Of a DNA stretch of 64,000 bases, positions 32,007-32,437 are shown piece after piece. How positions within the stretch are numbered: the first letter of the stretch is position 1; each line of letters opens with the position of its first letter. Position numbers and translations under genes: made by a program. The notes under the pieces are model-generated. The model was not told the DNA's origin, did no database searches, and worked only from the letters and a program-made list of their open reading frames with translations. This DNA is from Levilactobacillus fujinensis (lineage in GTDB: Bacteria > Bacillota > Bacilli > Lactobacillales > Lactobacillaceae): positions 1-64,000 of the forward strand of contig NZ_RHNX01000008.1 of the NCBI RefSeq assembly GCF_003946335.1, written 5' to 3'.

Positions 32007-32279
32007 ATCAGTAAATTTTGACGGAAAATAGCCAAAAAACTTATTATATTAAAATTATGTTATACATTAGAAATTAAGCAACAAACGTTTTCTGAATGAG
32101 AAATTTAAGCGGAATTTGAATGAAATATACTGTAAATGATTAGAAAAAAGTAATCCAACCCCCTAATGGACTTGAAAAGCATGCTTTTAGACCAACCAAT
32201 CAGATATTTCTAATCAATCATATTATTATCGCGTGAATATTCTTCACAATTTCTTCACATTTACCAGTTAGGATAGCCA

Positions 32280-32395
32280 TATACCAAAAACCTATTAACC
32301 AACCTTTCTTCATTTTATTAACCAAGTAAAATGAATGCCGTTTGCCCTAACCAAGTAAGCGGTCCGACCGTCCTCTAACCAGGGACGGTTTTTTT
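32280..32395 (+). ncRNA. Candidate small RNA with three hairpins displaying UAACCA loops
   Basis: Three hairpins follow one another. First, TTCATTTTA (32309-32317) pairs with TAAAATGAA (32327-32335), loop TTAACCAAG. Second, CCGTTTG (32338-32344) pairs with TAAGCGG (32356-32362), loop CCCTAACCAAG. Third, ACCGTCCT (32367-32374) pairs with GGGACGGT (32382-32389), loop CTAACCA, followed by seven T as a terminator. A further single-stranded TTAACCAACC lies upstream (32295-32304). No open frame explains this. The repeated loop suggests a protein- or mRNA-binding RNA. The 5' end is not determined; upstream DNA (32030-32270) is AT-rich and includes the palindrome AAAAGCATGCTTTT (32176-32189). Confidence 0.55.
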
Positions 32396-32437
32396 GTCTG
32401 CCATTTTGGTACTGAGATTTTGGATATAAGAATGAAA

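Follow-up and report, generated by a model that had tools for sequence, protein, structure and literature searches.

Within a 64,000-nucleotide stretch of the Levilactobacillus fujinensis genome (assembly GCF_003946335.1, contig NZ_RHNX01000008.1; hereafter the window) lies what is very probably the gene of a conserved small regulatory RNA, RNA A, in which one short sequence is exposed repeatedly. Our preferred explanation of the whole, to which we give about two chances in three, is an antisense small RNA, induced by a regulator, whose target is an oppA-like mRNA bound close to its ribosome-binding site. The locus and its relatives display a promoter, a covarying structure, UAACCA outside the stems, a terminator-like end and a match to the oppA leader in eight orthologues. 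It is hypothesized that a phosphorylated OmpR-type response regulator binds a direct repeat and switches on RNA A together with at least two siblings, and that the 5' segment of RNA A (ACCUAUUAACCAACC) would block translation by pairing with mRNA over the Shine-Dalgarno (SD) sequence and the bases immediately 5' of it. For the L. brevis group, the predicted target is the mRNA of an oligopeptide-binding (OppA-like) lipoprotein, with UAUUAACC of RNA A as the partner of GGUUAAUA in the oppA leader. The UAACCA loops may serve as extra contact sites on the same or other mRNAs. The features of the locus are as follows.

32139..32155, no strand: palindrome-like ATTAG-N7-TAATC, upstream of the RNA A promoter in 25 of 29 copies
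32243..32259, + strand: direct repeat TTCACA-N5-TTCACA, presumed response-regulator box, in 29 of 29 copies
32269..32274, + strand: -10-like hexamer TAGGAT, 9 bp 3' of the box
32281..32396, + strand: predicted small RNA (RNA A) of about 115 nt, from fold, conservation, covariation and terminator-like end
32295..32304, + strand: unpaired 5' TTAACCAACC, presumed pairing segment, conserved and able to pair with oppA leaders of eight genomes
32309..32335, + strand: predicted hairpin 1, loop containing TTAACCAAG in the window; seen in the fold, absent from the RNAalifold consensus
32337..32363, + strand: hairpin 2, loop containing CTAACCA; 7 of 7 consensus pairs changed on both sides
32366..32396, + strand: terminator hairpin (hairpin 3), loop CTAACCA, followed by a T run; 3 of 8 pairs changed on both sides

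The motif TAACCA starts at 32296, 32319, 32348 and 32376. The first copy is unpaired; each of the other three sits in a hairpin loop of the predicted fold (hairpins at 32309-32335, 32337-32363 and 32366-32390), and a T run comes after the third hairpin. This is the arrangement that the initial annotation had described: three consecutive hairpins with UAACCA loops, a further unpaired copy 5' of them, and a last stem acting as terminator, the third hairpin being the single terminator-like site in the scanned stretch. The predicted fold has an energy of -32.6 kcal/mol versus -16.3 in shuffled sequences (z = -5.5; 0 of 200 shuffles equal it). Four TAACCA copies were reached in none of 5000 dinucleotide shuffles of the region, and some hexamer occurred at least four times in 184 of the 5000. 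TAACCA is also the sole hexamer of the window with at least three kinds of letter that has four copies within about 90 bp on the + strand. Window-wide it is mildly over-represented (47 occurrences on both strands versus 32.7 expected; 1 of 100 shuffles as high). Transcription of RNA A probably starts near 32280.

The RNA A element was matched in 29 of 35 Levilactobacillus genomes, the nearest copies (95-96% identity) being those of G002, G013 and G007. When the element pattern was compared with a named genome collection, 26 stretches were found: 18 from Levilactobacillus, two from Lactobacillus sp. and six from unrelated taxa (Sphingobium, Xenococcaceae, Fibrella, Pseudomonadota, Lachnospiraceae and Chlorobiota), a number that by rough estimate can be attained by chance. 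Across the family, model R1 found 19 of 397 genomes, using strict search filters under which weak matches are lost; all 19 were Levilactobacillus, out of the 25 genus genomes in that sample. TTAACCAA was unchanged in all 29 oriented copies of RNA A. For covariation analysis, alignment A3 comprised 27 of the 29 copies, L022 (G021) and L028 (G024) being excluded for a divergent middle or 3' part, and the 5' unpaired TTAACCAAC was present in all 27. Without a supplied structure, RNAalifold recovered hairpins 2 and 3 from these 27 full copies. At ten of the 15 pairs in the two hairpins, both bases have changed and pairing is preserved. The covariation score was 0.523 versus 0.281 in shuffled alignments (0 of 500 shuffles reach it) and at most 0.172 for slid structures; paired cells amounted to 95.9% under the consensus structure versus at most 53.2% with slid partners. 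The count of pairs changed on both sides is a weaker statistic, with 11 of 500 shuffles attaining 10. The compensatory changes strongly support a structured small RNA ending at the terminator, and the covariation in relatives that had been proposed as a check was thus found for hairpins 2 and 3.

The loops of these two hairpins are more constant than their stems, with mean identities over the 27 copies of 97% (loop) and 67% (stem) in hairpin 2, and 99% and 84% in hairpin 3. Hairpin 1 behaves otherwise: its loop is UAACCA in 4 of 27 copies and mostly UUCACC-like in the others, and its stem is rather constant in most relatives while the loop changes. The idea of constant loops on unrelated stems therefore stood for hairpins 2 and 3 and failed for hairpin 1, which in most relatives displays the reverse pattern of varying loops on kept stems that the initial annotation had named as speaking against its reading; hairpins 2 and 3 show the opposite. 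A peptide-coding reading of RNA A was dropped for want of a conserved open reading frame, none longer than 20 codons starting within it in the 27 copies and those of 20 codons running off its end. An Rfam scan of the window returned no family at the gathering score; the initial annotation likewise knew of no described family with this loop.

The TTCACA-N5-TTCACA box precedes RNA A in all 29 copies, the first repeat being TTCATA in some. It is separated by 9 bp from the -10-like hexamer, which in relatives reads TATGCT, TAAGAT or similar. Farther upstream, ATTAG-N7-TAATC (TAATG once) is a putative second, palindrome-like control site. It occurs 103/104 or 92/93 bp 5' of the box in 25 of 29 copies, two distances that differ by about one helical turn. 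CAACCCCC comes after this element in many relatives. The promoter box, the small RNAs that share it and their mostly CU-rich motifs were absent from the initial annotation.

A HAD hydrolase gene lies 318 bp 5' of RNA A in the same reading direction, and the consensus scan placed no terminator between them. Both facts would fit a 3' untranslated region of the HAD gene, making the stretch part of a neighboring transcript, but we regard that as very improbable. By eye, a GC-rich hairpin and T run stand directly 3' of the HAD gene; RNA A has a conserved promoter of its own; and the reading frames starting in its 27 copies do not exceed 20 codons. The orientation of the unit relative to the same neighbors is also one way in L001-L004, the clade of the window, and the opposite in all 25 others (L005-L029). 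Because of this flip, the unit belongs to neither neighbor and is autonomous. The RNA A region is best explained as an independent small-RNA gene.

For a search for targets, 761 initiation regions drawn from the window and from 0.4 Mb of each of the genomes G030 and G034 were compared with the 5' segment. The best target was the gene of an SBP_bac_5 (OppA-like, by Pfam) lipoprotein in G030, of the L. brevis group, in which the oppA leader GGUUUGGUUAAUACUUUUUAUUGGAGG faces ACCAAUAAAAACCUAUUAACCAACC of RNA A. Within this one genome the match of -23.8 kcal/mol is not significant, as an energy of -23.5 or below was attained among the 761 regions by 25 of 60 shuffled segments. An oppA orthologue (at least 73% identity) was found in 8 of the 35 genus genomes, and GGUUAAUA is kept 5' of the SD in all eight leaders, the flanks differing between two groups. 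Each RNA paired with the leader of its own genome gave -23.8, -25.4, -23.3, -23.3, -22.4, -22.4, -20.3 and -15.7 kcal/mol. None of 500 shuffled segments reached the mean of -22.1 across the eight leaders, a result that is inflated because the orthologues share descent and the best gene was picked beforehand.

The bases that differ in RNA A also differ in the leader. G030, G003, G014 and G006 have AAUAAAA in RNA A and UUUUAUU in the oppA leader, and G031, G032 and G027 have AAUAUAA and UUAUAUU. Leaders of the first group pair at -23.3 to -25.4 with AAUAAAA-type RNA versus -19.8 to -22.1 with AAUAUAA-type RNA. Those of the second group pair at -22.4, -22.4 and -20.3 with their own AAUAUAA-type RNA versus -18.4, -18.4 and -16.3 with the AAUAAAA type. 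Pairing strength thus tracks the RNA A variant in seven of the eight oppA genomes. The exception is G007, which keeps a UAUAUU leader beside an RNA without matching bases (-15.7 for its own pair, versus -19.6 and -23.1 when the RNA comes from one of the other groups); given this mismatch, the exchange of bases between RNA and leader counts as a single event. Shared descent and the prior choice of gene make the support for oppA good but not decisive, and at that strength we regard the oppA leader as the predicted pairing target of the 5' segment.

It is possible, if clearly less likely than true pairing, that RNA A is real and conserved while its match to oppA is coincidental and its true targets are other mRNAs. 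The single-genome energy within the shuffle range, the presence of the orthologue in 8 of 35 genomes versus RNA A in 29, and the poor fit of G007 all leave room for this explanation. It does not readily account for a GGUUAAUA kept in 8 of 8 leaders despite group-specific flanks, or for a pairing strength that goes with the RNA variant in 7 of 8 genomes. The genome of the window itself lacks an oppA orthologue, its best match having 46% identity. A genus-wide search with the leader motif gave 59 matches, eight of them these oppA sites, and there is little overall excess because the reversed pattern gave 42.

The initial annotation had pictured an RNA that pairs with many mRNAs, or one that titrates a protein, and had pointed to UUGGUUA near mRNA start sites. 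No clear excess of UGGUUA or UUGGUUA was found near start codons, and among 309 orthologue pairs of G030 and G034 (about one third of each genome) UGGUUA was shared in one initiation region, inside the coding sequence. A TGGTTA in the leader of another OppA paralogue was left uncounted, since by eye it lies within the coding end of the upstream gene. What stands of the pairing claim is one supported target, oppA in eight genomes, which would be bound by the unpaired copy at the 5' end and the bases beside it. CsrB/RsmZ-type RNAs titrate a protein through GGA loops, and RNA A likewise repeats an identical loop motif, UAACCA and not GGA, on different stems. Its repeated loops might bind and titrate a protein, or sequester another RNA, and the near invariance of loops 2 and 3 on changing stems and the lack of a widespread target motif at start codons agree with that. 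We nevertheless consider such a role unlikely. One copy of the motif lies outside the hairpins, and hairpin 1 is without the motif in 23 of 27 copies. Furthermore, in eight orthologues the oppA leader is matched by the 5' copy with its flank, and siblings with the same box mostly have CU-rich, anti-SD-like motifs.

A promoter-pattern search of the genus gave matches in 34 of 35 genomes, the one miss being a genome that is 72% complete, and the reversed-pattern control gave three matches in the 35. Besides RNA A, two orthologous box-bearing sets, RNA B and RNA C, each with a predicted length of about 160 nt, were found in all 34 near-complete genus genomes; the sequences of each were read in 21 of the 34. 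RNA B (L076:5633-5830, G000:C1) lies between antiporter-like (by eye) and 5'-nucleotidase-like (Pfam) genes, and RNA C (L075:4764-4965, G000:C26) lies 3' of dnaB (by eye). Both contain ACUCCUCC. RNA C also contains ACUCCUCCUCCCC, is near-identical over about 150 nt in the 21 genomes read, includes GUACUCCUCCUCCCC, and has UUAACC in most of the 21. Fold z scores are -4.4 for RNA B and -6.2 for RNA C, and neither matched an Rfam family. Used as a DNA query against 301 family genomes, RNA C matched 26; eleven matches lie outside the genus, of which eight (genera g20 and g38) carry the box and are alike and three do not. A box match in G026 may belong to a divergent RNA A. A match in G023 (L030/L082) was dropped: it lies between rex-like and ABC-F-like genes (by eye) and resembles what we take to be the Rex operator motif.

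Two further arrangements were observed. At L078:5163-5300 and L079:7484 (- strand), a box-like promoter and a short terminator-ended stretch, which could be either a leader or a small RNA, lie directly 5' of an arylsulfotransferase-like lipoprotein gene. In several genomes a weaker box-like site, TTCATAAGTT-T/A-TTCACA (L077:5711; L081:8237, - strand), precedes an operon of a gene for a SpaA-domain protein (Pfam) and sortase-like genes (by eye).

Across the family, the box with its -10 hexamer is present in 145 of 301 genomes, which belong to 26 of the 40 genera, and the reversed pattern gave eight matches in total. Twenty-nine loci were fetched, one per genome (13 from g4, 11 from g12 and five from g13, g27, g31 and g40 together); these are related and not 29 independent events. 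In the 200 nt 3' of the promoter, CTCCTCC occurs in 14 of the 29 loci versus 1 of 346 control stretches from the same loci, any CU-rich motif in 26 of 29 versus 50 of 346, and a terminator-like hairpin in 23 of 29 versus 30 of 346. Both a CU-rich motif and a terminator-like hairpin are present in 21 of 29 loci, and the g13 locus has neither. Small-RNA-like sequence 3' of the box was read in eight genera, the box itself being in 26. We lean towards the view that the box is the mark of a regulon extending through the Lactobacillaceae, that this regulon acts chiefly through small RNAs, several in each genome and with target motifs that differ by lineage, and that its response regulator is new to small RNAs. 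As part of that reading, the target motifs would be CU-rich and anti-SD in most lineages and UAACCA in RNA A of Levilactobacillus.

The promoter geometry of RNA A is that of OmpR-type activation, as given for CiaR in PMC3091779. Nine OmpR-type regulators are present in the genome of the window, and at the nine fetched loci no box with fewer than three mismatches lies near the regulator genes. The recognition helix most like that of CiaR belongs to L204 (VVEVYMSNLRKEL versus VVEVYVSKVRKKL in CiaR, by eye). A close L204 orthologue is absent from all 14 box-bearing genomes of g38 and all six of g25 (best matches at E about 1e-39 to 1e-43, as for paralogues); all six g24 genomes without the box have one (E about 1e-82 to 1e-83). 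This distribution disfavors L204 as regulator of the box in general. A plain phosphate (PhoP) box is likewise disfavored, since a phosphate-transport promoter of G000 has TTTACA and not TTCACA repeats, but the geometry is related and PhoP keeps some probability. NCBIfam gave WalR/YycF as the sole name among seven regulators scanned (L198, above the cut-off), and a PDB search with L204 returned general response regulators only.

According to PMC3091779 and PMC8186281, streptococcal csRNAs occur several to a genome and depend on CiaR, which acts at a direct-repeat box with a 5-bp spacer about 10 bp before the -10 element; the RNA then ends at a terminator and has regions complementary to translation initiation sites. 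RNA A resembles them in the N5 spacer of its box, the 9 bp to the -10 element and the terminator-like end. It differs in the box itself, which is NTTAAG-N5-TTTAAG in csRNAs and TTCACA-N5-TTCACA (with TTCATA variants) in all 29 RNA A copies, and, less clearly, in its motif, which is UAACCA where csRNAs have anti-SD and anti-AUG sequences in an unpaired region. The pairing segment of RNA A would reach the oppA SD without a CUCC core, and siblings B and C carry ACUCCUCC. Furthermore, L204, whose recognition helix is the most like that of CiaR, and the box do not go together across genomes; PMC3091779 states that no homologues of CiaH had been found in Lactobacillus.

The LhrC1-5 RNAs of Listeria monocytogenes are described in PMC4132741 and PMC5880928 as a response-regulator-dependent family whose loops and linker carry UCCC redundantly. 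One target site is addressed by three UCCC sites, oppA is repressed at its SD region, and the LisR-responsive positions lie at about -55 to -75. RNA A shares with LhrC a presumed dependence on a response regulator, a repeated motif in loops and linker, and a predicted oppA-type target with pairing at the SD region. It differs in that the repeated motif is UAACCA and not UCCC, in that its box stands beside the -10 element whereas the LisR-responsive sites are at about -55 to -75 in LhrC, and in that no Rfam model matched in the window. By the tests made, RNA A is filed under neither LhrC nor csRNAs. As a candidate trans-acting antisense small RNA it has a promoter and a terminator-like end of its own, a conserved structure and a conserved segment complementary to a target leader, the support for oppA being good but not decisive.

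We class RNA A as a probable regulator-driven antisense small RNA, which is a known kind, and the family-wide box as the newer part. No small RNAs of this kind in Lactobacillaceae were found in the open-access literature, nor was a control layer in which a shared box stands before likely small RNAs in several lactobacillus genera found described. Lactobacilli are major food and gut bacteria in which small-RNA control seems little described, the papers found being, by title, on 6S RNA and on an abundant RNA from L. salivarius. With the box in 26 of 40 sampled genera, and small-RNA-like sequence behind it in each of the eight that were read, the signature would supply experimenters with loci to test at once. 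Through its oppA site RNA A would be tied to peptide uptake, the kind of target that is repressed by LhrC in Listeria. This suggests that Gram-positive bacteria have a shared, or a convergently evolved, logic for small RNAs driven by regulators.
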